Shown piece by piece: positions 70 through 15,845 of a DNA stretch of 45,647 bases. The DNA lies in contig CALVPP010000005.1 in assembly GCA_944351395.1 (NCBI GenBank), forward strand, positions 1 to 45,647, in the 5' to 3' direction. The first letter of the stretch is position 1; the number at the start of each line of letters is the position of its first letter. The notes beneath the pieces are model-generated. The model ran no database searches. It was not told the origin of the DNA and saw only the letters and a program-made list of their open reading frames with translations. This DNA comes from an uncultured Bacilli bacterium. GTDB lineage: Bacteria > Bacillota_I > Bacilli_A > RFN20 > CAG-826. The position numbers were made by a program, and so were the translations under genes.

Positions 70-2484
70 ATGAAAAAAATGACTTTTAAATTTATTCCTC
101 TAGTAGCGATTGCTACACTATTCACTCTTTTATCCTCTTTTAATCCATCTCCACAGTTTATTGCTAATGCAGCGAGCGAAAATATTGACTCTACTGATAC
201 AAGCGCTGATGAAATTCAAGATTATTATTCTTCTATAGTTAATTTAAGTGGCGAACAATTGTTAACATCTCTTAGTGACATAATCGATGATCATACTACT
301 ATTAGTTATGCAGAAGCATTTGAATGGATGATTATAACTGATAGAGATTATCTTCAATCACCATTAACTGATGAAGAATTATTGAATTATGACTTTAATG
401 CTATTAAAAATGATAATCCATACATGAGAATCATGTATCGTAACGATAATTTTCTTCCCACTGCTCAAAAATATTGGTTGAATAGTAACGATAGAACATT
501 TGATAGAGAACACACTTGGGCGCAATCTTTAGGTAGCTTCGATACATCGGCAGGCAAAGGAACCGATTTACATCATCTATTTGCTAGCGACGAGAAAAAT
601 AATCAACATGGCCATAATAACTTAATGTATGGGAATGCAAATAATAACACTCAACTCATCGGTGATACTCCTTATAATCAAACAGGCTATACTGGATATC
701 AAAACGGTAATTCGACTGTCAAGATTTATGAACCTCTTGATGAGGTTAAAGGCGATATTGCTCGTGCCCTATTTTATATGGCTACGAGATATGATGAGGA
801 TTTGCATCTAGCATTTGGATTAGATAATTTAGGCGAAAATACCATTGGTAATTTAGAAGTTCTTCTCGAATGGAATGAACTTGATCCAGTCGATCAATTT
901 GAAATACATAGAAACAATCTTATTTTTAATAATATCCAATACAATAGAAATCCATTCATCGATTACCCAGAATGGGCTAACGCTATTTGGGGAGACGGAG
1001 TAGCAAATGTCACAACAGATGAGCCTTGTTTAATAGAAAACACTATCGATATACGTCCAAGTGCAAACGGACGATTAGAAGTTGCATCTTTACCAAGTAA
1101 AATATCATATACACGCGGTGAACCCTTTAGTAGCGAAGGTCTCGTAATCAATAAAGCTAATGGCACTAATGTTCAACCGGTTGAAACATATGAATTAAGT
1201 ATCGTTGACGGAACTATTCTTGATAAACCTGGTACGATTGAAGTTCACGTCATAGCGAAGGAAGAAAAAGTTACCTATACATCTTTTACTATTGAGGTAA
1301 ATAACACAACCGAAGAAACGCCTATTTCGACCACTATCTATTCCACTGGATTTGATTATGAAAAAGGAACAAATTATGAAGGAACAGTAACTGTAGGTCC
1401 AGAAGGCCAACAATGGATTATTGATGGTAATATTTCAGAAACTAAAGCAGGTTCGATAGATGGGTTGACTGCTAGAATGCGCTTATACTCATACGGTATT
1501 GCTAATAAAGAGATTAAGATGGATTTTGATGTCAATAATGCATCAAAGTTAGAATTTGATACGATGATGAACACAAACCTTACTCTCGATGTTTATTATA
1601 GTGTTGACCATGGTCTTTCATATGAACCAATGTTAAATGAAGATGGCACCCCTTTTATAAACAAAAAATACACTTCTAGAACACATATTAGTTTAGATGT
1701 TCCTGAAGAAACTAAAAATGGACCAATTCGTTTTAAATGGGCACTAGGTGATGAATCTATTAGGCCTGGGAGTAAAAATTACGAATTATCTTTAGATAAC
1801 GTTCGCGTCTCTGGCGAAAATTACAACACTCCTTATGATGATTACCTTTTAATAAACGATATGCCTCGCACAACTTATTATCATGTCGGCGATAAATTTG
1901 ACGCTTCTAATCTATCGATTAGTCAAGCCTCTTACACGAATCCCACCGCTATCGTCAGCAATTATACTTTAAGCATTCAAAATGGCACAATCTTAAATGA
2001 AATTGGGCGAATTGATGTAATAGTGACAAGCAACTCTGTTAATGTGACACCAGTAAGTTTTCCCATCTACGTTTATGAGGAATTAAGCCCTGCTCAAATA
2101 TTTGCTAATAAATTAGCGACATATAGAACTTGCGATCAATACATTGATGCATATAACGATCTCATCGATGATTATAATGCTTTGAGTGAAGGCGATAAAG
2201 ACGCGCTCACGGATATATTTATCAATGATTTTTCTTACGAAGAATACATTCAAAATGGGTCGAGTTATGATGGGTTAAACCCTTCCGTTCGTATTAATGC
2301 ATACGAGAAATGGATGCAAATCGTTGCGTATTACGAAACCAATCAAGACGCAAATTGGTTAGAAGTAATGCTTCGCTCACCAGAAACATATATAGCGGTT
2401 ATCGTGATAAGTATTTCTATCGTGACTATATCGTTAACAGCCTACTTTATAAATAAAAAGATTAAAGCAAAAAATATTCGTTAA
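70..2484 (+). CDS. Secreted membrane-anchored endonuclease I family protein with Ig-like domains
   Basis: About 804 residues. An N-terminal signal peptide (basic MKK, then a hydrophobic stretch to about residue 30) is followed by an endonuclease I (EndA/NucM, ββα-metal) domain. Its motifs are REHTW near residue 147 and DLHHLF near 166 (the catalytic His lies in this type of motif), then an Asn-rich stretch ending NNLMYGN. Ig-like β domains lie around residues 331-410 and 594-671, with a β-rich, jelly-roll-like region between. A helical module (about 674-770) precedes a C-terminal membrane helix (about 774-793) and a Lys/Arg tail, so the enzyme should face outward. It probably degrades extracellular DNA for nucleotide scavenging. 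An in-frame TTG at 55 could extend the protein; I chose the ATG at 70 because it precedes a normal signal peptide. The stop overlaps that of the convergent peptidase gene by a few bases. Confidence 0.85.
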   Translation: MKKMTFKFIPLVAIATLFTLLSSFNPSPQFIANAASENIDSTDTSADEIQDYYSSIVNLSGEQLLTSLSDIIDDHTTISYAEAFEWMIITDRDYLQSPLTDEELLNYDFNAIKNDNPYMRIMYRNDNFLPTAQKYWLNSNDRTFDREHTWAQSLGSFDTSAGKGTDLHHLFASDEKNNQHGHNNLMYGNANNNTQLIGDTPYNQTGYTGYQNGNSTVKIYEPLDEVKGDIARALFYMATRYDEDLHLAFGLDNLGENTIGNLEVLLEWNELDPVDQFEIHRNNLIFNNIQYNRNPFIDYPEWANAIWGDGVANVTTDEPCLIENTIDIRPSANGRLEVASLPSKISYTRGEPFSSEGLVINKANGTNVQPVETYELSIVDGTILDKPGTIEVHVIAKEEKVTYTSFTIEVNNTTEETPISTTIYSTGFDYEKGTNYEGTVTVGPEGQQWIIDGNISETKAGSIDGLTARMRLYSYGIANKEIKMDFDVNNASKLEFDTMMNTNLTLDVYYSVDHGLSYEPMLNEDGTPFINKKYTSRTHISLDVPEETKNGPIRFKWALGDESIRPGSKNYELSLDNVRVSGENYNTPYDDYLLINDMPRTTYYHVGDKFDASNLSISQASYTNPTAIVSNYTLSIQNGTILNEIGRIDVIVTSNSVNVTPVSFPIYVYEELSPAQIFANKLATYRTCDQYIDAYNDLIDDYNALSEGDKDALTDIFINDFSYEEYIQNGSSYDGLNPSVRINAYEKWMQIVAYYETNQDANWLEVMLRSPETYIAVIVISISIVTISLTAYFINKKIKAKNIR

Positions 2485-3746
2485 GAAGCGCGATTATGGA
2501 AGATGATTTCTAAATCGTTCATCTCTTTTTTGATGTCGCTACTCAAATTGAGAGAACCATCTTCTGTCACTAATACATCATCTTCTATACGAATACCGAT
2601 GCCCATCTCTTCTATGTATAATCCAGGCTCAACAGTGATGACGTTACCTGGTTCTAAAGGAGTGCTACGATCACTTTCGTCATGTGTATCTAACCCGAGA
2701 TGGTGCGATACACTATGATAATAATATTTAAAAACGTCTTTTGGTTCGTTTATTAAACCAATTTTATAAAGTTCGTCTTGATAGAATTTCACCGTTTCAT
2801 CTTGTAAATCTTTTAATGTTAGACCAGGTTTAATGAAATCGATGATATGTTTATTACATCTGACGACGATATCATAAATTTGTTTTTGTTCAGGATTAAA
2901 TTTACCGTTGATTGGATAAGTTCTTGAAATATCGGCATGATATCCTTCTACCTCAGCACCTAAATCAAATAAAATTAAATCGTTATCCTTTAGTTTTGCT
3001 AAAGGTGTTGGATAATGTAAAATAGTCGCATTCTTTCCACTTGCGGCAATCGTAGCAAAGGATAGATTTGCATTCGCATAATCTTTGATTATATATTCGA
3101 ATAAAGCAACCGTTTGATATTCATAAAGACCTGGTTCTAAAACATTCATAATAGCGTTTAAGCCGACATTCGTCACTTTGATGGCGTCTTTTATAGTTTT
3201 AATTTCTTCATCTGATTTAACCATTCGTAAGCGAATAATAGTGTTTGAAAGGTCCATTACCTCTAATCCATAATCTTTTTCGATATCTTCCTTTAAATTT
3301 TCTAGATAATAATTTTCCTTAATTTTTACTTCTTTAGAACTGTCCAAGTACACCTTCTCTATTAGTCCGTATTGTGCTTCTTTACCAAGAATCAAAGCAA
3401 GTTTTTCAAAGAAATGATCAAAAAATAGGACGTTATCGATACCGCTAAGAGATTTAGCTTCTTCGACGCTCAAGCGCTTCCCTACCCATTTCGCTTTCGT
3501 TTCATTAGGTTCTTTAACAAAAAGAATTACTTTTTTGTCCGTTGCTGTCTTTACGAACATGATAAGAGATTCTTCTTGAGTAATATTTGTTAAATAGAAA
3601 AAATTACGATTAGCTGTAAAAGGATAAGTAGTGTCATCACCGCACTCTAGTTTTGCCATGCCGCCGAAGACGAGACCGATCGATTCATCTTCCATCGCAT
3701 TAAATATTTTTTCTCTTCTTAATTTAAGTTCATTGACACTAATCAT
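2481..3746 (-). CDS. pepP: Xaa-Pro aminopeptidase (M24B family)
   Basis: About 421 residues. Cytoplasmic metallopeptidase that removes an N-terminal residue preceding proline. An N-terminal AMP_N/creatinase-like domain is followed by the pita-bread M24 domain. All metal-ligand motifs are present: the two Asp of FDLGAEVEGYHADISRT, the His of SVSHHLGLDTHD, and the Glu residues of TVEPGLYIEE and GIRIEDD. The start is set at the ATG at 3746 because GAGGTG lies 6-7 bases upstream; an upstream in-frame TTG at 3764 lies before that Shine-Dalgarno site. Length is normal for the family. It sits after yigZ with a 56-base gap containing its own -10 box. Confidence 0.93.
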   Translation of the reverse strand: MISVNELKLRREKIFNAMEDESIGLVFGGMAKLECGDDTTYPFTANRNFFYLTNITQEESLIMFVKTATDKKVILFVKEPNETKAKWVGKRLSVEEAKSLSGIDNVLFFDHFFEKLALILGKEAQYGLIEKVYLDSSKEVKIKENYYLENLKEDIEKDYGLEVMDLSNTIIRLRMVKSDEEIKTIKDAIKVTNVGLNAIMNVLEPGLYEYQTVALFEYIIKDYANANLSFATIAASGKNATILHYPTPLAKLKDNDLILFDLGAEVEGYHADISRTYPINGKFNPEQKQIYDIVVRCNKHIIDFIKPGLTLKDLQDETVKFYQDELYKIGLINEPKDVFKYYYHSVSHHLGLDTHDESDRSTPLEPGNVITVEPGLYIEEMGIGIRIEDDVLVTEDGSLNLSSDIKKEMNDLEIIFHNRAS

Positions 3747-3769
3747 ATTTATCACCTCATTCAATGTCT

Positions 3770-3802: not shown

Positions 3803-4372
3803 TTATTGTTTTAATTTTATTTTTTCTTCCTTTACTATCTTTATTCCGTCACTACTAAATATTTGGTTTAAACACATGATCGTAATTGAAGCGTCTTCAT
3901 CGTGATGTTTTTCATCTATGATTTTAATATCACTATCATTTTTAAAATCGGCGAGCTTTTCATATTTGACGATTAGATTATATTTATAGCCACCGACGAG
4001 TTCTACTTTCTTAGCATTATTTAAAGTAAGGTTTGCAATATCGACATAAGTACGAAGTAACCTTCCTGCCCCTAATAAAGTACCGCCAAAATAACGAACG
4101 ACGATTAATAGACAATAATCGATGTCCTTTTTATCAAATAATTCCAATACTGGTTTAGCAAAAGTGTTGTGAGGTTCACCATCACTAGATGCATATCTAT
4201 CTATCCCGCATTTGTAAGCATAACAATAGTGGCGTGCCTTAGGATACATTTCCTTAGCAAGTTTTAATTTATCTACTACTTCACTTTTTTTAGAAATGGG
4301 CCACAAAAGCCCAATAAACCTAGACTTAAGTACTTCTATTTCTTCCTCATGAAAAGATTCGAATGTATACAT
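3803..4372 (-). CDS. YigZ/IMPACT (UPF0029) family protein
   Basis: About 189 residues. It matches the YigZ/YvyE/IMPACT family: SRFIGLLWPISK near the N-terminus, then DGEPHNTFAKPVLE and VVRYFGGTLLGAGRLLRTY, corresponding to the family's DGEPxGTAGxP and YFGGxxLGxGGLxRAY signatures. The second Gly of the LGxGGL motif is Arg here. The eukaryotic IMPACT homologue acts on GCN2 and translational control; the bacterial role is uncertain. It starts 2 bases after the stop of the giant 2529-residue gene and should be translationally coupled to it. The functional link between the two is unknown. Confidence 0.88.
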   Translation of the reverse strand: MYTFESFHEEEIEVLKSRFIGLLWPISKKSEVVDKLKLAKEMYPKARHYCYAYKCGIDRYASSDGEPHNTFAKPVLELFDKKDIDYCLLIVVRYFGGTLLGAGRLLRTYVDIANLTLNNAKKVELVGGYKYNLIVKYEKLADFKNDSDIKIIDEKHHDEDASITIMCLNQIFSSDGIKIVKEEKIKLKQ

Positions 4373-4374
4373 AA

Positions 4375-7300
4375 TTAAATTGATAATATTGCTTCTGCTA
4401 GTTGAGAATAATTATCTTGTTCAGTTAAGAATGGTTTTTCATAATTGGCGAAATCAACGCCTTGGCCAGCATAAATATCTACTAGATCATCATGATAATA
4501 AGCGCTATAGAGGCTGTCACCAAGAATGTTATCATCTAAAAGTTTTAACGTATCAGCGAGTAAAGTTACATCTTCACCCATATGATTAATTAGTTCCATC
4601 GTATTAACAATTGAGGTGACAAGTTTTTCATCTACTGCACTTAAGTTCGTCGCATCGATGATAATACTCTTATAACCTTCAAAAATTGAATTTTGTGATG
4701 AAGTAGTTTTAATATAATTATCGATACGTAAGGAAATAGGATTGATGATGAAATTGACGAAAATATCTTTAGCAAAATAAGAATCAAATTCACCATTTGA
4801 AAGGGTTAATTCGAGAGATAGTATCTTATTTGAGTAAGAAAGATAATCTAGTAGATTGGAGCCGCCTTGCAGTTTTAGCATCATAAATGCTTGGCTATCT
4901 AGGATGAAATCATTTAAGAAATTCGATAACAACGTCCCTTCTAATCTTGCATCAAAGTCTACGTTAACACTATAGGTATAGAATCTCTTCGCTAAGCCCA
5001 TCTTAGTATTATCAGTTAGGAAAAGTTCATTCGTGTTCGATAACTCAAATATGTTACTTAAAGATAGGCTATGTCCAGAATAAGAAGGTGTTGATGCATC
5101 ATCCACTTCGTCAAGAATGTGAATATTAAATAAGACATCAAATAAATCAGGGAACAAAGTTCTATTTTCTACGAGGAAATTAGCATCCATGATGTCGAAA
5201 CTACCATAAGTTGGTGTAGCTTCACTAGTATCGAGGAATATATCGAATAATTTTTCTAGAAGAATCAAATCTTCACTATACGATATTTGACCGATATCGT
5301 AATTTGCAAAGCTCTCCCCTTTATCATTGACAAATAAATCACTGAAATGATAAACGGTACCGCTCGATTGACTGCTAAGAGGAATATTATCAAATTGAGT
5401 AGCAAATAAAGAAGGTAAAATATTATCAAGAGAATCAAGATTATTAATTTTATCGAGAAGCTTAAAAATCTTCGTGTTAGCGTCTTCACCTAGATGAGTA
5501 ATCAAACCATTTAAGTCATCAACTTCTTCAATCGACAATGTCGAGCCATTAAACATGTCGTGTAACGTGTCTAATAAAACTTTAAAATCGTCTAATTCAG
5601 CGATGAACGAACCACCATTTAAAACACCATTTGTAGATTCATAGTTGTTCAATATGCGTAATTGATAGTCATTAGCATTCAATCCACCAGCGTCGTTTTC
5701 ATCATAATTTAAACTTGATAGCCCTAATGCATCATAAATTTCAGACATGACATCGATGAACATAGTTGCATCAGATCCAGTCTTTGGACCAGCCGCGTGC
5801 AAAACGTTTGAATCGTGGAATAATTTTAAAGTTTCGATAATTAAAGAATTGTTTTCGTGTGACAAGTTACTAATGGAATGAATGTCGATGTTCATAATTA
5901 GTTTAGCTTGATCGATAATTTCGCTAATGCGATACAATTCAGCTGCATCGTATCTAGCTTCATATCCGTCTCTGTAATGGTAGAAAATGTTCGCGTTCTT
6001 TAAATCGATATTAATGCCATCTTGGTTCGTGAAAGGATTTTCATTAACAAAATAGTACATGACATTCGTAACACCATCATAAAGAGTGTCTGATTCATTC
6101 ATGAGTGACATGAGTTCATATAATTCATTACCGCCTATATTGCTAAAGTCAATCAAGGAAACATTCATCGAATTGCCATCAGCCAAATTTAAAGATTTGA
6201 TGGAGCGGAAAACATCCACAACTTTTTGAAGTTCTAGATTTTGTAAATCATAATTCATGTCAAGATAAGCATCTTGACTTTCATATGGGAAATTTAAATC
6301 TGCGAGATAAATTGCTTTAGTTTGTCCGTCAGTGTAAATATTAGACAAAGCTACGTCTTTAGGCGAATTCTCATTGTAAATGAGCCTCTGCAAGTCTTCC
6401 ATCTTTAAAATTGAAGAGATGATAGTTTGCAAGAAACTATGCTTATTAATAGAATTAGCATTCGGTCCAGCGCGATGGAAAATATTTGATGAATGAATAT
6501 CGATAAATGTCTTTTCTAATAAGTCTAAATCTAGTTCAGAGAGATTTGTAAAATGCGAATTTCTTAAATTTCTTAAATCGTTCATGATAGCGGTTATGGC
6601 TCTGATTTCGCTTTCTGGATAAGGTTTATCGCCTTGATAACGAACATTCACTGTCGAAAAATCTAAATCTGAAAGTGCTTCTAAACCACTAATAGAATCA
6701 CTGTTGCTCATCGCTTCATCAAAATGATTAGGAATGATTCTAAATAAAAGACGCGAATTATTGATGTGAACGAGTAAATTTTGGAAGGCTGATTCATTTT
6801 CAGACATCTTAAGAAGTGACTCCATTGTATCAAAAGCAATATAACCATTAGTGTCCATGAGAGGTTCAGAACTTTGAATAGTCATGAGTAATCTTTCTAT
6901 TTCTCCTTCATCATCGCCAAGAGGGAGCCATCCTTCACGTATAACATTTTTATCTGCTTTTGCATTACCGATACTAATGATGACATCTATTGAATCTTGA
7001 CCAACAGGAGAAACATCTTCTTTAAAATTCATAGTAGCTAATAAGTTATCGATGAGGTCTTCGTAGACCGTCGTATTCTTCTCAATTCGAGTTTCACTAC
7101 CAACGAAAGTATTAAAAACATTTGATTGATAAGTGTCGACTAAAATATTACGTAACACATCGATGTTCTCATTAACATAAGATAGAGAGATATCTTCTGT
7201 CGTACCTTCTTCTGGCAAGAATGAATTGAAATTAGTCATGATACTTGTAAGTCGAACAATTTCATCTTCTGGGTAAGGAACATCATAATTATCATTTTGA

Positions 7301-10300
7301 TAATGATAATAAACATTTGCCTTGTTAAGATCGAACATAAAATCATCTAACGTAGTAGAGAAAGGATTTGTATCGACGATCATTTGAAGAATGTTCGGCA
7401 CACCATCATAAAGAAGTGAAGAACGATTCATCGTCAACATAGCACTTTCAATTTCTTTCATATCGACATTACGGTAGTCAATCGTGTCGATATTTGCCCA
7501 ATCAACATCTAATTTTTTTAGTTCGCTCAGCGTATTGAATAATTCATTAATCTCGTTTACTTGCCATGACCAATCATCATTACTTACCGCACTTGGGAAT
7601 GCACTATGAACGAGATAATGCATCTTAGTAGAAGCGTTGCTATATAATGGGCGATTATAAACATCCTTCGGTGATTTTTCATTATATAATAATGAATTCA
7701 TTTCATCTAAATCTAAGGAAGATGAAAGAATATTTTGGAATAAAGTTTCGTCATTGACGTTTTTATCTTTTGGTCCAGCACGATGGAAAATTTTAGAAGA
7801 ATGAATATTAAGCATCGTGTCTTCCAATATATCTAATGTTTGTTCATCTATGGAATCAATTGAAGTAAATGTGACATTTTCTAAATCTTTAAGATTTAAT
7901 AATATCTTTACCAATACGTCTATTTCTCCACTTTCATATTTTATATCGCCGCGATAGTGTACATTAGCTAAAGAAAAATCGACGTCCTTTAATATTTCTA
8001 TATCGGTAGAATTAGCGTTTGTTAAAGCAGTATCTAAGGCATTAGGGAGCGCTGAATACAATAGCCTGGAGTCATTTATCGAATGGAGTAAACTACTAAC
8101 TTCATTGACGCCATTTTCCTTATCTAACATATAGAAGAAATCATCCAAATTTTCGATAGTTAATGATTCACCTTCGTCCACTAAAGCAGATGCATGTATG
8201 ATGACTTCAATAAGACGGCTAATTTCACCGATATCATTTTCAGTGTCTAGCCATCCTTCAACGACGCTGCTCGCATCCGCGTGTTTGTTACCAATGCCGA
8301 TAATCGTATTCGTCTTATCGTCAATATATTCATTCAATCCAGCTTCAGTAACGACATAAGAGATGACATTCTCAAAGGAAGTTAGTGAATTTTCTATGCG
8401 ATATCCTTTTTCAAAAGTATTTAAAATCGTAGAATCATACATCTTCACTAATAGATTTTTAAAAGTTAGTGAGTCATTCGCGATCGTGTCTATATTCACA
8501 TTCGCACCAGAAGAAAGGAGACCAAATGATTTAAGATCAGAAATGATATCTACAAGAATATTTAATTCCTCTTTTCTTTCATCTAAATTCATAGCGATGA
8601 TAGAAGAAATGTTTGCGTTGTCAAATTTCAGCGTACCAACTTCTAAAGTGTCAAATGCATCATTTAGCATATGATATAAAGGAATACGCAAAACGCTCAC
8701 ATCATTGAAAGATAAAACGACATCACGTAAAAGAGCGTCATCAAGATTTTCATCCAATAAAATATCACTAGGATTGAATGTATTCCCAACGATGCCTAAT
8801 TGATTTTTTGCTTCGTTTAACGCACGAACTAATTCTGTGATTTTAAAGTTTAAATCTACTCCATTGCCATCGACACGCGTTTCAACATCTTTCCAATCTA
8901 ATTTGGTAGAAACGTTAGAGAAATCAATGTCCATTTCATCATATCCAAGCCCGTCTGGATCGATAAAATAGTCTTTGCCAGTTAGACTAGAAAAAGAAGA
9001 TTGAATTTTATCTTTTACAAAAATTGGGAAAAGGAATTCACCACTCGATTTTTCGACGAAGATATGTGATTCGACGAGTGCATCAAGTAATGCACGCAAA
9101 TCTAAATAATCGACATTGAATATATTAATTTCATTGATATTTTCCGTGAATTTGCCGATTATCGTACAAATTTCTCCGAAGATTTGTCCTTCTTTCGACC
9201 AATCGACGATGTTATTAAAAGTTATACCATCTTCAATATCGATAATGCCTGTCGAAGATAGATAATAGTCAAATGTATCACCAATAGAAGACTTCGTCAC
9301 TTCGCTCATGTCAATTGCACTAAAAATCTTCGAAATATGATATGTCGTTTCAAGTTGACCAATTATTTCGTTACTAATCTCTTCTTTATTTAAAGCATCA
9401 TAGATGCCGCTTTCTGCATAAGTATCAAAGAAATTAATAATGTATCCTAATTCTCCATCATATAAGATGTTACCATCACGGTCACGAACATAATCACCAT
9501 TTAAAAGTTTAGTATTAGTCCATTTCGTCACTTCGAAAGCAGTCGAATCAAAATCAAAATATGGAACATAGTTTTCGTATATATTTCCTAAACAATTATA
9601 GAAATTCATCGTGCGCATAGTGCCGTCACGTGTCTTAGGATTTATGATATTAGAAATGTAAAAACTTTCGAACAAATTGAGCAATAATTCTTCATTCCCA
9701 TCGATCATCTTAAGCGAACTGCTCACATCATCTACACCAGAATTAAATGAGTCATTCACAAAAAGAACACCATCTAAAGCCGAGAAAATAATGCTTAATT
9801 CTTCACCTATATGGTCTACTTCCCAATCGAACGTTTTACTATCTAAACCAACCTGCAATAAAGTGTTATGAATGCTAGGATCATCCATAAACCCTTTGAT
9901 GACATCGGGTATAATTACACTTAATAATTTAGAATTATCTATGGTAGGAAGTGCAACTTCCATGCCCTCTATAAATTCATCATCGATAGAAACGATATTT
10001 CCTTCATTATCAAAGATAATTGCGTCGTTATCTTCTGGATTCAATAAATAATCGACGATTGAATCGTATCTTCCAAGAGTCGATAACGATTCGAGTAAAG
10101 CACCAAATTCTTTTTTGAAATTATAGAAAGCACGATCATCGTTCATATTCGCGATAATCGAATCAATTTCATTCATATCGATGTTAACTTCATTTGTATT
10201 TAAATTAGTAGCTAATAAGTTGACTAATTCATCAATTGCGTATCTAATTAAGTCAGAATCAAAAAGACAATAATCAGCACCATCTAACCAATTACCATCA

Positions 10301-11964
10301 CTATCAGTCGTAATCGTGCGGCCGTATTCATCCACGCCGATAGGATTATTGTTTTGGTCGGTTTCGCCGACGATAATACGTTTTAATTCGTCACCACTCT
10401 TAAGTAAATTAGCAACAAAAGATAAGTCGCTGGCGTTTTCTCCTTCCGCTATGTCTTCAGTAGATGTATTGCTGCCACTCACTTCTATGATGCTAGAAAG
10501 CAAAGTAGGATCCAATTCATTCAATTCATAAAGCGAATCATAAATAATAGCGAGATTTTTGCCCCAATCGATATTTTTATATTGTTCGATAGTATCAGGT
10601 AGATAAGCACTAACCTCTTCCCCTATCACTCCGCTACTAGAAACGCTATAGAGGACAATTGGGATGAGATTTGATAAAAGTTCACTTTGTGAAATAGTGT
10701 CAAATATTCGCATGAAATAGCCATAAGAATCTGTAGCTAATAATTGCTCATAAATAGCGTCGATATCGATATTATTAATATCTTTCCAACCAATTGGCTC
10801 ATTATTGATATCGTATTCAATAAAAGCGTCGATAAATCCACTATCATAGACGTCGCTCACGATAAGTTGTAAATTATTGATCTCGTCTTGTACATTGAAA
10901 TCAAACGATTCGACCAAACTAGGATCAATATAATCTTTCATCGCTTCCTGATTCATAGCGATAGAAAGCGCTAATGGTAAAGCGTAGACGATTAAATCAC
11001 TCGCTGAAAAACTTTCCAGAAGTTCTATCAATAGATCAGCGTCAGCAAAAATAGCACTATCAAAGCTAAAGCCTTGGTCAGTAATTATTCCATTCGATAT
11101 GATAGTTCCGCCTGTTCTACCAGCTTGTGATATGATGTCATAAATCGTATCACCTGTGCCAGTTCCGACGAAATAATCCATAAGCCAACTATCGAAAGAC
11201 CAAATACCATCTTCGCTAGTCCAATTAAAAAATATATTTGAGAAAGCAGAATTATTGTAAACTGAAATGAATTCGTTCATTTGCTCAGCAAGTTGATTAT
11301 CGCTATTACCCGTTGCACCTTTTTGATATGCCTTAGCAAAAATATTGACGATGCTAATAGTTGGAAGTGCGCACATGCAAGTAATAAGCACATATCTTAA
11401 AACATGGAATATAGCGCCTAACCAACGTTTTTTATGCGAACGCCTAATACGTTTTGGGAAAAAACGTTTAAATATTAAGTGCCATAATAAAATGCACAGA
11501 AAACCACCAACACTGACGATGAGTAAACTAGAAATAATGATGCCTACAAGCGCTAATAGGGATAAAGCAATATTTGTAGCATAAGCTGTCATATCACCAC
11601 TTACCGTAACATCATAAAGCTCACATAATCCCTCTATTAAATGAGTTAATGTATCTAAGGCGTTTGAAATCAAAATAGTTGCCGATTCGCCTGTCGCTGT
11701 ATTTGTGATGACAAATGTGTTACCTGCATAGCCAAAAGAATTAAATATAGGTAATAAATCAATCGTACCTAGAAATTTGGCGAACGCTGGTGCACAAAAT
11801 AAAGCAATTATCGCAAGTCCACCCATGAAGCAAAAACGATATAAAGAATTGACGAGTCCTCTCTTCCATCCGATTAGGAAAGATAAAACTAATCCTAAAA
11901 AGAAAAGTACGACAAGAATTATCGTGACAATATTGATAATATTTGCTACTTCAGCCATATCCAT
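4375..11964 (-). CDS. Giant CvpA-like membrane-anchored repeat protein (2529 aa)
   Basis: I do not recognise the full-length protein. The N-terminal ~215 residues hold about four membrane helices (roughly 7-32, 42-64, 131-165, 183-210). The opening, with GWKRGL after the first helix, resembles the CvpA/colicin V production family. The remaining ~2300 residues are hydrophilic, acidic, Asn/Asp/Ser/Leu-rich and predicted mostly helical. They contain repeats: motifs such as IHSSxIFHRAGP, NxSRLLY...PN, LLYDGVPN and ANVxYxY recur, and a unit of about 436 residues is duplicated at about 1175-1610 and 1611-2035. There is no LPXTG and no recognisable enzyme motif. The ATG follows an extended -10 box by 6 bases, without a Shine-Dalgarno site. 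A co-transcribed yigZ gene follows after 2 bases. It is plausibly a surface adhesin, scaffold or envelope-spanning structural protein (inference). Confidence 0.75.
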   Translation of the reverse strand: MDMAEVANIINIVTIILVVLFFLGLVLSFLIGWKRGLVNSLYRFCFMGGLAIIALFCAPAFAKFLGTIDLLPIFNSFGYAGNTFVITNTATGESATILISNALDTLTHLIEGLCELYDVTVSGDMTAYATNIALSLLALVGIIISSLLIVSVGGFLCILLWHLIFKRFFPKRIRRSHKKRWLGAIFHVLRYVLITCMCALPTISIVNIFAKAYQKGATGNSDNQLAEQMNEFISVYNNSAFSNIFFNWTSEDGIWSFDSWLMDYFVGTGTGDTIYDIISQAGRTGGTIISNGIITDQGFSFDSAIFADADLLIELLESFSASDLIVYALPLALSIAMNQEAMKDYIDPSLVESFDFNVQDEINNLQLIVSDVYDSGFIDAFIEYDINNEPIGWKDINNIDIDAIYEQLLATDSYGYFMRIFDTISQSELLSNLIPIVLYSVSSSGVIGEEVSAYLPDTIEQYKNIDWGKNLAIIYDSLYELNELDPTLLSSIIEVSGSNTSTEDIAEGENASDLSFVANLLKSGDELKRIIVGETDQNNNPIGVDEYGRTITTDSDGNWLDGADYCLFDSDLIRYAIDELVNLLATNLNTNEVNIDMNEIDSIIANMNDDRAFYNFKKEFGALLESLSTLGRYDSIVDYLLNPEDNDAIIFDNEGNIVSIDDEFIEGMEVALPTIDNSKLLSVIIPDVIKGFMDDPSIHNTLLQVGLDSKTFDWEVDHIGEELSIIFSALDGVLFVNDSFNSGVDDVSSSLKMIDGNEELLLNLFESFYISNIINPKTRDGTMRTMNFYNCLGNIYENYVPYFDFDSTAFEVTKWTNTKLLNGDYVRDRDGNILYDGELGYIINFFDTYAESGIYDALNKEEISNEIIGQLETTYHISKIFSAIDMSEVTKSSIGDTFDYYLSSTGIIDIEDGITFNNIVDWSKEGQIFGEICTIIGKFTENINEINIFNVDYLDLRALLDALVESHIFVEKSSGEFLFPIFVKDKIQSSFSSLTGKDYFIDPDGLGYDEMDIDFSNVSTKLDWKDVETRVDGNGVDLNFKITELVRALNEAKNQLGIVGNTFNPSDILLDENLDDALLRDVVLSFNDVSVLRIPLYHMLNDAFDTLEVGTLKFDNANISSIIAMNLDERKEELNILVDIISDLKSFGLLSSGANVNIDTIANDSLTFKNLLVKMYDSTILNTFEKGYRIENSLTSFENVISYVVTEAGLNEYIDDKTNTIIGIGNKHADASSVVEGWLDTENDIGEISRLIEVIIHASALVDEGESLTIENLDDFFYMLDKENGVNEVSSLLHSINDSRLLYSALPNALDTALTNANSTDIEILKDVDFSLANVHYRGDIKYESGEIDVLVKILLNLKDLENVTFTSIDSIDEQTLDILEDTMLNIHSSKIFHRAGPKDKNVNDETLFQNILSSSLDLDEMNSLLYNEKSPKDVYNRPLYSNASTKMHYLVHSAFPSAVSNDDWSWQVNEINELFNTLSELKKLDVDWANIDTIDYRNVDMKEIESAMLTMNRSSLLYDGVPNILQMIVDTNPFSTTLDDFMFDLNKANVYYHYQNDNYDVPYPEDEIVRLTSIMTNFNSFLPEEGTTEDISLSYVNENIDVLRNILVDTYQSNVFNTFVGSETRIEKNTTVYEDLIDNLLATMNFKEDVSPVGQDSIDVIISIGNAKADKNVIREGWLPLGDDEGEIERLLMTIQSSEPLMDTNGYIAFDTMESLLKMSENESAFQNLLVHINNSRLLFRIIPNHFDEAMSNSDSISGLEALSDLDFSTVNVRYQGDKPYPESEIRAITAIMNDLRNLRNSHFTNLSELDLDLLEKTFIDIHSSNIFHRAGPNANSINKHSFLQTIISSILKMEDLQRLIYNENSPKDVALSNIYTDGQTKAIYLADLNFPYESQDAYLDMNYDLQNLELQKVVDVFRSIKSLNLADGNSMNVSLIDFSNIGGNELYELMSLMNESDTLYDGVTNVMYYFVNENPFTNQDGINIDLKNANIFYHYRDGYEARYDAAELYRISEIIDQAKLIMNIDIHSISNLSHENNSLIIETLKLFHDSNVLHAAGPKTGSDATMFIDVMSEIYDALGLSSLNYDENDAGGLNANDYQLRILNNYESTNGVLNGGSFIAELDDFKVLLDTLHDMFNGSTLSIEEVDDLNGLITHLGEDANTKIFKLLDKINNLDSLDNILPSLFATQFDNIPLSSQSSGTVYHFSDLFVNDKGESFANYDIGQISYSEDLILLEKLFDIFLDTSEATPTYGSFDIMDANFLVENRTLFPDLFDVLFNIHILDEVDDASTPSYSGHSLSLSNIFELSNTNELFLTDNTKMGLAKRFYTYSVNVDFDARLEGTLLSNFLNDFILDSQAFMMLKLQGGSNLLDYLSYSNKILSLELTLSNGEFDSYFAKDIFVNFIINPISLRIDNYIKTTSSQNSIFEGYKSIIIDATNLSAVDEKLVTSIVNTMELINHMGEDVTLLADTLKLLDDNILGDSLYSAYYHDDLVDIYAGQGVDFANYEKPFLTEQDNYSQLAEAILSI
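5860..8445 (-). repeat. Two ~436-residue tandem protein repeats inside the giant gene
   Basis: Aligned landmarks recur at a spacing of about 1310 bases. They are: STILNTF near 8440 and SNVFNTF near 7130; YRIENS and TRIEKN; NDSRLLY near 8060 and NNSRLLF near 6745; FHRAGP near 7775 and 6465; NEKSPKDV and NENSPKDV; LLYDGVPN near 7410 and TLYDGVTN near 6080. The repeats are diverged at nucleotide level, so this is an old duplication. Smaller shared motifs suggest each unit is itself built from modules of about 110 residues. Confidence 0.75.
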
Positions 11965-11970
11965 GTTTAT

Positions 11971-11979
11971 AATCTAGCA
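11971..11979 (-). promoter_or_regulatory. Extended -10 promoter of the giant gene, leaderless type
   Basis: On the minus strand, TGCTAGATT (TGn plus -10 TAGATT) ends 6 bases before the ATG at 11964. No Shine-Dalgarno site lies between. It is divergent from a similar extended -10 promoter serving the CPBP gene. Confidence 0.5.
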
Positions 11980-12048
11980 TTTTTTGTTAATAAATTTAAT
12001 AAAAATTTATGCACAAATGATAAAAAAATAATAAAATCGCTACCGATG

Positions 12049-12057
12049 TGCTATCAT
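12049..12057 (+). promoter_or_regulatory. Extended -10 promoter of the CPBP protease gene, leaderless type
   Basis: TGCTATCAT (TGn plus -10 TATCAT at 12052-12057), then 7 bases, then the ATG at 12065. There is no Shine-Dalgarno site. The -35 region is AT-rich without a good match, as is common for extended -10 promoters. Confidence 0.55.
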
Positions 12058-12064
12058 TTTATCT

Positions 12065-12859
12065 ATGTTTGACAAAACTATTTGCCCAAAATGCGAAAAA
12101 GCATATGATGATCATCGTGATAAATGTCCAAAATGTCATGCATTGAATGATTCTTTTGCTCGCAATAAAAAAATCAATATGATGTTTTGGCCTCATCCTA
12201 TCATGCAAGTCGTCTATTTTTTAATCGGCTTCCTTCTAATTCAAATCATTCCAATTTTCGTACGTTTAGGGTTAGCAGATCTTGCTTCTAAAAATCCAGT
12301 CTATTACAGTGCTTTGCTAAACTGTATTACTTATTTAACTATTACTATCGTCTTTGCGTTAGTGCTCATTCCAGAATATTTTCAATTAGGTAGACAATTT
12401 CAAAAAGGTTTTAGAACGTATCTTATCGCCATCGTAGGTTTTCTCGTTCTTATCTCTTTTTCATTTTTATGGTCTTATATTTATTCATTAGCGTTCCCAA
12501 ATCAAATAAACGATAATCAAAATAGCATCAATACGATGACTATTTCATATCCTATACTTTCTCTTCTAAGTGTTGTCTTCTTTGCTCCGTTTGTCGAAGA
12601 ACTTACCTATCGAGTTGGTCTATTTGGATTTTTGCATAGAATAAACCGATACTTAGCTTACTCGGTTACTATTATCTTCTTCGCCCTAATACACATCAAT
12701 TTCCAAACGACCAACTGGGGCGCTGAAGCCATGGCGATTCCAACTTATCTTGTTGGCGCTACCATTCTCACTATCGCTTATGAAAAAGGTGGTTTTGCTT
12801 CATCATATCTCATCCATTTAGCTAACAACTTGTTATCGTTCATACTCATTTTCTTATAA
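12065..12859 (+). CDS. Zinc-ribbon CPBP-family intramembrane glutamic protease
   Basis: 264 residues. An N-terminal zinc ribbon with two CPxC knuckles (CPKCEKAYDDHRDKCPKCHA, residues ~7-26) precedes about six to eight membrane helices. The CPBP/Abi (CAAX-processing) motifs are all present: EELTYR (E178, E179, R183), an FFALIH histidine motif, and HLANN near the C-terminus. The family cleaves peptide bonds within the membrane, as in Rce1, bacteriocin-immunity and signalling proteases; the substrate here is unknown. The next gene starts 4 bases downstream, so the two are probably one operon, and the gene is divergent from the giant surface protein. Confidence 0.9.
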   Translation: MFDKTICPKCEKAYDDHRDKCPKCHALNDSFARNKKINMMFWPHPIMQVVYFLIGFLLIQIIPIFVRLGLADLASKNPVYYSALLNCITYLTITIVFALVLIPEYFQLGRQFQKGFRTYLIAIVGFLVLISFSFLWSYIYSLAFPNQINDNQNSINTMTISYPILSLLSVVFFAPFVEELTYRVGLFGFLHRINRYLAYSVTIIFFALIHINFQTTNWGAEAMAIPTYLVGATILTIAYEKGGFASSYLIHLANNLLSFILIFL

Positions 12860-12863
12860 ATTT

Positions 12864-13769
12864 ATGGAAGAAGTAATTGTAAAAGAAAAAAATCATTTCA
12901 ATGTATTATCCAATTTTTGGATAAAAATTTTAGCCATCATTTTCATGACGATAGATCATATCGGAATAGGACTTAGCACCCTTTCCTACGCTGAAAACTC
13001 CCCTCTAGCAATTACGATAAACATTTTTCGTATCATTGGTAGATTAGCTTTTCCTCTTTTTGCTTTTCTTCTCGTCGAGGGATTAAGGCATACACATTCG
13101 ACAAAGAATTATCTTTTACGTCTCGCCTTTATGGCTATTCTAATTTTCTTTTCTTATCTCATCATATACCACGCTTTTGGTCTAACTATTTCTGGAGGCA
13201 ATATTTTCTTCGATTTGCTTCTTGCTGCCATAAGCATAATCTTAATTGAGAAGAAAAAAACCATTTCTTTACTTGCAATATTACCATTTTTATATGCCTT
13301 ATTTTGCACAATAGTAAATGCTTTAGAATTTTCTCAAGTCATCAATTGGACGAATATATTTTTACCATATTTTAGGATGCAATATGATATATTCGGTTAC
13401 CTTCTAATCTTAGGTTTCTTTTACGCTTATAAATTAATTCCTTATATATTCAATAATGATAAATTTAAGGATTTTAGTTTTGAAGCATATAAAACTACTA
13501 ATTCATATCGTCTTTTTGCGAACGCGATGATGATTACTGTCCTCATCATTTTGAACCTAATTTGGTATTTTATAAGTGTCCATGTTCCTGGTCTACAATA
13601 CATCGCTGGTGGATTAGGAATGGAATCATGGTCGATATTTTCCGCTATCATTATACTATTGTATAATGGGAAAAGAGGTTATAATGCAAAATGGTTCGTC
13701 TATAGTGCCTATGCATATTATCCGGTGCATATCATTATCATCGGTTTAATTTTCTATGTTATATTGTAA
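12864..13769 (+). CDS. TraX-family integral membrane protein
   Basis: 301 residues with about eight membrane helices. It shows the TraX (PF05857) signature: MTIDHIGIGL, then FRIIGRLAFPLFAFLLVEG, then a HT...YLLRL motif. TraX acetylates F-pilin in enteric bacteria. In Firmicutes, chromosomal TraX-like proteins are probably membrane acyltransferases acting on envelope components (family-level inference). The ATG lies 4 bases after the CPBP stop without a convincing Shine-Dalgarno site, so translation probably relies on coupling. The thioredoxin gene follows after 28 bases. Confidence 0.85.
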   Translation: MEEVIVKEKNHFNVLSNFWIKILAIIFMTIDHIGIGLSTLSYAENSPLAITINIFRIIGRLAFPLFAFLLVEGLRHTHSTKNYLLRLAFMAILIFFSYLIIYHAFGLTISGGNIFFDLLLAAISIILIEKKKTISLLAILPFLYALFCTIVNALEFSQVINWTNIFLPYFRMQYDIFGYLLILGFFYAYKLIPYIFNNDKFKDFSFEAYKTTNSYRLFANAMMITVLIILNLIWYFISVHVPGLQYIAGGLGMESWSIFSAIIILLYNGKRGYNAKWFVYSAYAYYPVHIIIIGLIFYVIL

Positions 13770-13797
13770 TTGCAAAATAAATAGGAGGATTAAATTA

Positions 13798-14109
13798 ATG
13801 TTAAAACATGTAGAAACAACAAAAGAATTTGTAGAAACGATTAAGGAAGGAACCGCGGTAGTCGACTTCTACGCTGATTGGTGCGGACCTTGTCGTATGC
13901 TAGCACCAATATTCGAAGAAGTAAGCAAAGAACTGTCTGATATTCCTTTTTTGAAAGTAAATGTTGATAATTTACAAGATATAGCAATTAACTATCGCGT
14001 ATCATCCATCCCAACAATCATCATCTTCAAAGATGGGAAAGTTGATAAAATTCAAGTCGGTTACATCGATCAATCAAAACTTCTTAATCTAGTTAAATCT
14101 AGCCTTTAA
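13798..14109 (+). CDS. trxA: Thioredoxin
   Basis: 103 residues, the usual length of TrxA. The active site WCGPC is at residues 28-32, preceded by VVDFYADW. The cis-proline motif SSIPT and the C-terminal IDQSKL helix region are also present. It is a cytoplasmic dithiol-disulfide oxidoreductase. The start is set at the ATG at 13798 because AGGAGG lies about 9 bases upstream; upstream in-frame codons overlap the TraX gene region. No terminator separates it from TraX, so it may be transcribed with that gene. Confidence 0.95.
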   Translation: MLKHVETTKEFVETIKEGTAVVDFYADWCGPCRMLAPIFEEVSKELSDIPFLKVNVDNLQDIAINYRVSSIPTIIIFKDGKVDKIQVGYIDQSKLLNLVKSSL

Positions 14110-14114
14110 TGTAG

Positions 14115-14143
14115 TTGCACCGCGCTAGACTTTATCGTATAAT
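14115..14143 (+). promoter_or_regulatory. Promoter for tRNA-Gly
   Basis: -35 TTGCAC at 14115-14120 and -10 TATAAT at 14138-14143, with a 17-base spacer. The start would lie about 3 bases upstream of the mature tRNA 5' end. Confidence 0.85.
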
Positions 14144-14152
14144 CTTTGGAGC

Positions 14153-14226
<74 letters not shown>

Positions 14227-14326
14227 CTAGAATTGAAATGTCCCCCAAAATTTTGCCCAAATAGGGTAAAATAAATGGGGACACATCTGAACATAACAGG
14301 ATCGATACGATTGGTCCTGTTTTTTT
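14227..14326 (+). ncRNA. Candidate structured RNA or tRNA trailer
   Basis: Directly after tRNA-Gly lies a nested hairpin. The outer stem is TGTCCCC (14239-14245) with GGGGACA (14277-14283). The inner stem is TTTTGCCC (14251-14258) with GGGTAAAA (14264-14271) around an AAATA loop. An intrinsic terminator follows at 14296-14326. It could be a processed small RNA released from the tRNA transcript, a simple trailer, or a mobile-element remnant. No known RNA family was recognised. Confidence 0.4.
14296..14326 (+). terminator. Intrinsic terminator after tRNA-Gly and the candidate RNA
   Basis: ACAGGATC (14296-14303) pairs with GGTCCTGT (14313-14320), including one G-T pair. A run of seven T follows. 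Confidence 0.8.
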
Positions 14327-14493
14327 ATACGTAAGTTGCACTTGGGAAGCTTTTAGATAATATGATTATGAAAAAATAATTTGCGCATCAATAATTATAC
14401 AAAATATGTGTATCACTAAACGATTTAAGCTTTAGTATTAATTTCTTCGATGATAAAAAAGTATATTTATTAAGTTGTTTCACGTATATAACT

Positions 14494-15114
14494 TTATGAT
14501 AAATTTCTCTTTTTCATTCTCGCTAAATCATTGACGACATATTGTAGTTGTTTAGCATCAATTTTCGATACGTCTCTTTTTTCAATATTTTTGATGAGAC
14601 GATTAAGTTTTGAAAGAGGAACAAGAAATGAATCTTTTTCTTTAACATCAAATGGAAAAAGTAAACAATCATCATTAACTACGACGATAGAGATGAGAAG
14701 TTTTGGATCTATGTTTGTAGCATAAGAAAATCTTTTAACTCGTTCTTTATTCTTTAAAAGTGGATTATCAATATAACGTTTTTCAAACATTTTCGGATAA
14801 AAGAACCAAGATTTGTCCATTTCATTGCCTTCAATTGCCCCACGATAAAATCTATCCTTAATGCAATAAATATATTTATCACCAAAAAGAATGTGGTCAA
14901 TGTGAATTGTTTTATCGTCATCAGGACGAAGGATGAAATCGTTAATTAAAAAGAAGTCATAATCAAGAGCGATGCGGTATATTTTTTTGCCATAAAAATA
15001 ATTAAAATGACGAAAGAAAAAAATTCTTTTAACAACTGGGAAAAAGAGCAAAAAGAGGACGAGAAGTCCCCCGAATATACTTAAAACGATATAAGTAATT
15101 TGCTCTGCATTCAT
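14494..15114 (-). CDS. Membrane protein with a NERD-like domain lacking the catalytic residues
   Basis: 206 residues. One N-terminal membrane helix (about 8-28) is followed by a cytoplasmic domain resembling NERD (nuclease-related domain): FLINDFIL, then IHIDHILFG, then YIYCIKDRFYRGAIEG. In NERD the segment after the DH motif normally reads IExK, supplying the Glu/Lys of the nuclease fold; here it is IKDR, so endonuclease activity is doubtful. It starts 14 bases after the deoD stop and is probably co-transcribed with it. No good Shine-Dalgarno site is visible. The function is unknown and the NERD assignment rests on motif pattern only. Confidence 0.6.
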   Translation of the reverse strand: MNAEQITYIVLSIFGGLLVLFLLFFPVVKRIFFFRHFNYFYGKKIYRIALDYDFFLINDFILRPDDDKTIHIDHILFGDKYIYCIKDRFYRGAIEGNEMDKSWFFYPKMFEKRYIDNPLLKNKERVKRFSYATNIDPKLLISIVVVNDDCLLFPFDVKEKDSFLVPLSKLNRLIKNIEKRDVSKIDAKQLQYVVNDLARMKKRNLS

Positions 15115-15128
15115 ATTTAAAAACCAAA

Positions 15129-15845
15129 TTATTTATCTGCTATTTCTAAAGCAATCTCCACCATTGTTTTAACACCAGTTTCACGTTCGCCTGCCGTAGC
15201 TTTCTTACTACCATCCAAAAATAAATCTGTCACTGTTAAAATGCATAGTGCGCGTTTTTTTAATCTAGCTGCTGTGACATAAAGTGCATAACTTTCCATT
15301 TCGACGCCTAGAATACCTAACTTCGCCCAGTTCTTCCAAAAATCGGGATCGAAATCATAAAATATATCACTTGATAAAATATTACCGACATGCACATCTA
15401 AACCGCGTCTCACGACAGCGCTATAAGCAGCTAAAACCATGTCGAAATCAGCACAGGCAGAAAATGTTCCGCCGCGAAGATTAAATTGTTGAGCCCAATC
15501 AGAATCTGTTGAAGCGCTCATACCGATTATGACATCAAATAGATTGATGCCTGGCTGATAAGCACCACATGTTCCGATACGAATAATCGATTCTACACCA
15601 TAATGTGTGAACAATTCATAAGAATATATACCGATAGATGGGAGACCCATACCACTAGCCATAACTGAGACACGTTTGCCTTTTTTTGTGTAACCAGTGT
15701 AACCTAATACACCACGAACATCAGTGACAAGTTTAGCGTCAGTTAAAAAGTTTTCAGCAATCCATTGTGCTCTTTTCGGATCTCCTGGCATGAGAACAGT
15801 TTTTGCAAAAGCGCCATCTTCCGCGTTTATGTGGGGTGTCGGCAT
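15129..15845 (-). CDS. deoD: Purine-nucleoside phosphorylase DeoD
   Basis: 238 residues, the normal length. It phosphorolyses purine (deoxy)ribonucleosides to free base and (deoxy)ribose-1-phosphate in salvage. The trimeric/hexameric DeoD family signatures are present: TPHINA at the N-terminus, MPGDPKRA, ASGMGLPSIGIYSYEL, IRIGTCGA and VEMESYALY. AGGAGGT precedes the ATG by 8 bases, and a -10 box lies about 45 bases upstream. It could use nucleosides released by the surface nuclease encoded at the left end of the window (inference). Confidence 0.96.
   Translation of the reverse strand: MPTPHINAEDGAFAKTVLMPGDPKRAQWIAENFLTDAKLVTDVRGVLGYTGYTKKGKRVSVMASGMGLPSIGIYSYELFTHYGVESIIRIGTCGAYQPGINLFDVIIGMSASTDSDWAQQFNLRGGTFSACADFDMVLAAYSAVVRRGLDVHVGNILSSDIFYDFDPDFWKNWAKLGILGVEMESYALYVTAARLKKRALCILTVTDLFLDGSKKATAGERETGVKTMVEIALEIADK

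Follow-up and report, generated by a model that had tools for sequence, protein, structure and literature searches.

Which task a protein of 2529 residues performs when its N-terminus resembles CvpA, a membrane protein an order of magnitude shorter, and why its gene adjoins yigZ at a distance of 2 bases, are the questions raised by a locus of an uncultured Bacilli bacterium. The window, i.e. the whole analysed stretch of 45,647 nucleotides, was compared with genomes of the same genus, order and class, and the features of the locus are collected in Table 1.

Table 1. Features of the giant gene, its encoded parts and its conserved flanks (window coordinates)
Feature	Position	Strand	Basis or remark
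Giant CvpA-headed protein, whole gene	4375..11964	minus	2529 aa, ATG start
Four-helix membrane head, residues 1-215; distant CvpA (PF02674-type) domain; GWKRGL at 32-37; positively charged loop 164-181	11320..11964	minus	AlphaFold, profile comparison, charges
Residues 216-1024, first ectodomain part, constant length order-wide	8893..11319	minus	Near-invariant residues; model pLDDT 80.9 (1-1024)
Residues 1025-1960, variable number of tandem helical repeats, units of ~105-120 aa	6085..8892	minus	Repeat analysis, model
Residues 1961-2529, conserved C-terminal ectodomain part, further helical repeats	4378..6084	minus	Alignment, model, sequence
yigZ / UPF0029 (IMPACT family)	3803..4372	minus	PF01205 E 6e-26; 2 bases past giant
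pepP-like Xaa-Pro aminopeptidase, conserved flank	2481..3764	minus	PF00557 E 9e-56
CPBP/CAAX protease with N-terminal zinc ribbon	12065-12859	plus	Pfam; divergent flank, order-wide
TraX-like	12864-13769	plus	Pfam; divergent flank, order-wide
Thioredoxin	13756-14109	plus	Pfam; divergent flank, order-wide

The giant gene, its family and its slot

The preliminary description had reported an uninterrupted frame of 2529 residues as the largest gene in the window, leaving its strand unmentioned, and both statements were confirmed: the frame is intact and ATG-initiated, its translation is identical under tables 11 and 4, and the runner-up encodes only 969 aa. Each of the four genus members has an ortholog; the three outside the window's own genome measure 2103-2106 aa and are 47-48% identical across the long alignment, rising to 56-58% in the first thousand residues. 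The gene is under purifying selection along its full length, with dN/dS of 0.115-0.129 between congeners (2103 codons) and values below 1 in each fifth. A chance frame is excluded by the orthologs in 4/4 genus members together with these ratios. That the gene might be an assembly artefact, a chimera or a decaying frame has a practically negligible probability, as nothing but its size favors this reading, whereas independent assemblies, single-contig genomes included, share the architecture and the locus, and purifying selection spans the whole length.

The giant is only 47% identical to its nearest congener, compared with 60-94% for most neighbour genes, and is therefore diverging faster, at a rate that is surface-like; other neighbours of lower identity to the nearest congener are yigZ (50%), an endonuclease (52%) and thioredoxin (57%). 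The endonuclease, an 809-aa product of the plus strand at 55-2484, combines an endonuclease I domain (PF04231, E 2e-35) with subsequent Big_3/Reelin-like domains, is fast-evolving with 52% identity in the genus, and is likely a surface or secreted nuclease.

The search for other giant CvpA-headed proteins, proposed in the preliminary description, was positive at both taxonomic levels. A profile of residues 1-500 recovered the family from 152/279 order genomes, reaching every one of the seven sampled families, though some only weakly, with frames of up to 3921 aa, and from 115/395 genomes and 62/193 genera of the class, where frames extend to 4803 aa. For such a scan of the genome collection the A2 alignment proved too divergent. 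Full-length orthologs of the order comprise 1200-3907 aa. A head of four helices is combined with an acidic ectodomain (net charge -117 to -292) in 21/21 full-length members examined, and this combination recurred in the 16 class-level loci that were opened, with frames of 882-4800 aa; relatives of such sizes are spread over many other families of the class. Literature searches for giant CvpA-headed proteins returned nothing. The giant thus represents a real, widespread and unnamed protein family of well-supported architecture, for which a binding or scaffold function is inferred; the family is large, ranks among the longest genes of these small genomes and has no name in the libraries searched.

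One locus (L163) encodes tandem giants at 4191-11408 (2405 aa) and 11750-15424 (1224 aa), and match pairs in other genomes of its family suggest the same arrangement. Another (L162, 2921-17323) holds the longest member opened, of 4800 aa, preceded immediately upstream by one more related frame, and belongs to a family that retains murC.

Throughout the order the giant occupies a single slot, in which the thioredoxin, TraX-like and CPBP genes diverge from giant-yigZ-(mrp)-pepP-(glpK). The divergent trio at 12065-14109 is conserved across the order and stays intact where the giant has been lost. In 10/10 opened genomes of the same family without a giant, the flanks are kept with CPBP and yigZ directly adjacent, and the 1-500 profile located no giant elsewhere in these ten genomes; one weak match to the full giant protein (E 6e-4) was found in giant-less genome G048. 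A tree of the flanking genes requires seven changes between presence and absence; well-supported branches force six of these, and outgroup families carry the giant in the same slot. The tree alone cannot separate gain from loss; because at least six changes are forced and the outgroup families hold the giant in that slot, the simplest interpretation is one of repeated loss. The clean absence in 10/10 genomes and the changes on the tree establish the gene as accessory. Consequently, the important role thought probable in the preliminary description does not hold in the sense of indispensable, as many close relatives have that slot cleanly devoid of the giant.

The distance of 2 bases to yigZ was reproduced, and the adjacency recurs order-wide, mostly with a spacing of -4 to +6 bases. 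Since the two genes usually overlap by 4 bases or adjoin within 6, they are probably co-transcribed, which is what a functional pair acting in one pathway would lead one to expect. Such a partnership is nevertheless very improbable, as yigZ stays in place in all ten giant-less genomes, the giant has no yigZ next to it in some lineages, mrp intervenes between the two in another, and the giant has different neighbours outside the order. The pairing, formerly called unexplained, can be ascribed to inherited ancestral gene order, with yigZ as a neighbour rather than a functional partner. In several genera of the family yigZ itself is only ~125 aa long and retains just the first UPF0029 domain (e.g. 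L039 13573-13959 and L040 5373-5750), compared with ~200 aa elsewhere.

The CvpA-type head

The four N-terminal membrane helices noticed at the outset lie within residues 1-216, at 3-35, 37-66, 123-163 and 180-216 of the AlphaFold model, with the GWKRGL motif at residues 32-37. The Pfam Colicin_V/CvpA model (PF02674) aligned in the correct placement to residues 23-87 of the window protein, reaching 12.6 bits against a gathering score of 29.3 (E 0.14), and none of 40 relatives matched it at E<=0.01. When the head alignment was compared by hhalign with an alignment of true CvpA, i.e. proteins retrieved by PF02674, a probability of 93.7 (E 2e-7) was obtained over head columns 28-204, nearly the entire domain; four control families encoded at these loci, of which two consist of multi-pass membrane proteins, reached 0-3.6. 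The true-CvpA set contains two wrong-frame rows (L111 and L133), whose effect is to weaken the match, not to strengthen it. Among 973 neighbouring proteins the CvpA HMM ranked 13 members of the giant family and a 283-aa head-only protein at the top, the first outsider following at E 0.028, and reciprocally the head HMM recovered true CvpA proteins with E down to 1e-7. EI24/CysZ was weakly matched by Pfam in 2/40 relatives instead, which is probably a membrane-helix artefact.

The head is accordingly well supported, by reciprocal profile matches set against control families, as a remote CvpA domain below the Pfam cut-off, so that the CvpA-likeness first noted stands at the level of profiles and falls short only of the Pfam threshold; an N-terminus devoid of CvpA similarity was not what the profile check found. 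The protein is better called CvpA-headed than CvpA, having the four helices and 10 times too great a length.

Shorter relatives were also encountered. The head-only protein of 283 aa (L091 10750-11601, genome G051) is recognised by the giant-head profile as well as by PF02674 and lies outside the conserved slot, while CvpA-headed proteins of 570-850 aa above the Pfam cut-off occur in other families of the class (G317, G326, G322, G346 and others) and are possibly intermediates or separate fusions. The only other PF02674 match in the window's own genome (C1:757-858) covers 34 positions of an unrelated 229-aa frame and was judged spurious. The idea that the giant replaces an ordinary CvpA was rejected as a rule, with both proteins found in some genomes and neither in others.

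Loops 32-37 and 164-181 of the window protein contain K/R and no acidic residue, whereas loop 67-122 and the ectodomain show the reverse, with 132 K+R against 396 D+E from residue 213 onwards. Loop 164-181 is net basic, and acids exceed bases in the first ectodomain stretch, in 41/41 relatives. By the positive-inside rule applied to these charges, the placement of both protein ends outside the cell is well supported as a prediction.

The ectodomain

The ~2300 hydrophilic, repeat-bearing residues of the preliminary description correspond to residues ~216-2529, which are indeed hydrophilic and acidic, with significant internal repeats. The first ~1,000 residues of the protein are almost constant in length across the order, and near-invariant positions of the stretch 216-1024 are Y236, S239, D258, P330, N338, G533, E619, S678, N775, E838, W922, E925 and W1024. 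The differences in length among orthologs arise chiefly from the number of repeats in the middle part (1025-1960), whose motif is NxSxLLxxxxP / HxSxIFHRAGP. Within the genus a regular expression for this repeat was matched 9 times compared with 0.1 in shuffled sequences, and the same expression fails class-wide. Residues 1251-1550 align with 1692-1992 at E 6.5e-58, and further matches at offsets of ~218 residues define a super-period made of ~110-residue units. In its first two rounds a repeat HMM detected 10 to 13 units of ~105-120 residues, which cover most of the ectodomain; on further iteration it drifted to the double unit, and counts past the second round were not used. No sorting motif was seen in the sequence of the C-terminal part.

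AlphaFold models of residues 1-1024 of the window protein (pLDDT 80.9, pTM 0.59) and of residues 1000-2103 of an ortholog, L036 (pLDDT 77.2, pTM 0.60), are nearly all helix, with long helices every 104-124 residues in the repeat region; with input alignments of 20-40 sequences and pTM of ~0.6, the overall rod shape is uncertain. The nearest PDB shapes found by Foldseek were generic HEAT-type solenoids, with best E of 6.6e-2 and 2.3e-3 for the two models. The structure prediction proposed earlier for the ectodomain yielded a long helical-repeat region, predicted to lie outside the membrane. Single-protein and profile searches with both halves identified no sequence relative in the PDB, and no family in Pfam or NCBIfam named the ectodomain significantly, the NCBIfam matches being weak and at chance level; a known adhesin or Mollicutes surface family, which would have spoken against the preliminary description, was thus not encountered in Pfam, NCBIfam or PDB. 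A continuous alpha-solenoid of ~105-120-residue units on the outer face is well supported as a prediction from the models. Dividing the ectodomain length by the unit length gives a rough estimate of ~20 helical units, and the extended length is roughly estimated at a few tens of nanometres.

Proposed role and likeness to known systems

The best explanation, given about an even chance of being right, is that the giant works as a surface rod independent of sortase and wall, an alpha-solenoid on a CvpA base operating in the manner of Ebh/Embp. The CvpA-type four-helix head would be seated in the membrane with both ends outside, bearing on its outer face the predicted, strongly acidic alpha-solenoid of ~2,300 residues. 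This long curved or elongated rod would reach outwards from the membrane, by a few tens of nanometres if extended, and may bind partners such as polymers of the matrix, the host or adjacent cells, or the surface coat of the cell itself. Repeat number, which differs between relatives, would set the reach of the rod, and the constant first ~1,000 residues would probably form a shared functional base; their strong conservation and scattered invariants would also fit a receptor-like base. Such a protein may be useful in some niches and repeatedly lost in others. The original proposal of a membrane module anchoring a filament or scaffold is borne out in so far as a CvpA-type head and an outside helical-repeat rod are predicted, with binding or scaffolding itself only inferred; against the best explanation, no sequence feature points to an adhesive activity.

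The state of the cell wall raises the unlikely alternative of an envelope scaffold, in which many side-by-side copies would form a coat or corset lending mechanical or osmotic support to peptidoglycan-deficient cells. The window's organism is probably wall-less, as judged from its gene content: in a genome 99.5% complete no match to murC was found, and the single Mur-ligase match is a 412-aa frame, FolC-like by size. For these orders a mixture of walled and wall-less families is predicted, with several lineages lacking peptidoglycan and sortases (PMC10868615); the order of the window's organism is presumably GTDB RFN20, and its family may be among the peptidoglycan-deficient ones there. Likewise in keeping with a scaffold, murC occurs in 30/115 giant carriers and 144/280 non-carriers (Fisher p 4e-6), an association confounded by kinship. 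However, walled relatives (families f3, f12 and f23 and genus g6) also carry the giant, which is hence not confined to wall-less cells, and many close relatives without murC have cleanly lost it, so wall-less cells do not require it; the same observations weaken the notion of a simple wall substitute. Still less likely is an activity residing in the CvpA head, as a module related to transport or resistance, with a solenoid that would capture its substrate or serve as a docking site for surface partners. The head is conserved to the same degree as the ectodomain, some relatives of 283-305 aa consist of a head alone, and enteric bacteria require cvpA to resist the bile salt deoxycholate (PMC6705877), a lead that concerns the head only. 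The literature examined, however, establishes no transport activity of CvpA, and a three-fold variation in length and repeat number behind the same head is more readily reconciled with a tether than with a gate for substrate.

The surface rod, if correct, suggests a way for bacteria that have no sortases, and in part no wall, to present a long protein on their surface, and would add a novel type of cargo to the CvpA fold, itself poorly understood. A broader reading, tentative and rather doubtful, is that the class-wide giants constitute a general surface-display or envelope-architecture system of Mollicutes-related Bacilli that replaces sortase and wall anchoring where peptidoglycan has been thinned or lost. 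The clean present and empty slots in near relatives make the role directly testable by comparison of niche and phenotype.

Among known systems, CvpA (PF02674) shares with the giant the four-helix head, a G-x-x-[KR]-G-type motif past the first helix and the two-way profile similarity; true CvpA proteins in the sample are ~160-250 aa long without an ectodomain, whereas the giant carries one and stays below the Pfam cut-off. The N-terminal helices of the MarP / Rv3671c type are CvpA-type helices. MarP bears a domain outside the membrane on four N-terminal membrane helices (PMC4992679) and may thus be a precedent for the arrangement proposed here, with the difference that its cargo is a trypsin-like protease, whereas Pfam matched no protease domain behind the giant head in the window protein and 40 relatives. 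HEAT/ARM-type alpha-solenoids (SF3B1, Scc2, importins) resemble the ectodomain in helical-repeat shape (Foldseek E 2.3e-3, probability 0.72), but are eukaryotic and intracellular, have units of ~40 rather than ~110 residues, and show no sequence similarity and TM-scores of only ~0.1. Ebh/Embp, giant staphylococcal matrix-binding proteins with helical repeats of ~125 residues, form an elongated membrane-associated surface rod (PMC7587433). They have a signal at the N-terminus and a membrane segment at the C-terminus, where the giant is anchored by its N-terminal four-helix CvpA head, and the predicted continuous solenoid differs from their fold; neither FIVAR, GA nor DUF1542 was found in the giant by Pfam, and no PDB sequence match to Ebh repeats was obtained. 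As giant extracytoplasmic helical-repeat proteins serving as a surface rod, a character predicted from sequence and models for the CvpA-headed protein, Ebh/Embp would by analogy be its nearest functional likeness.
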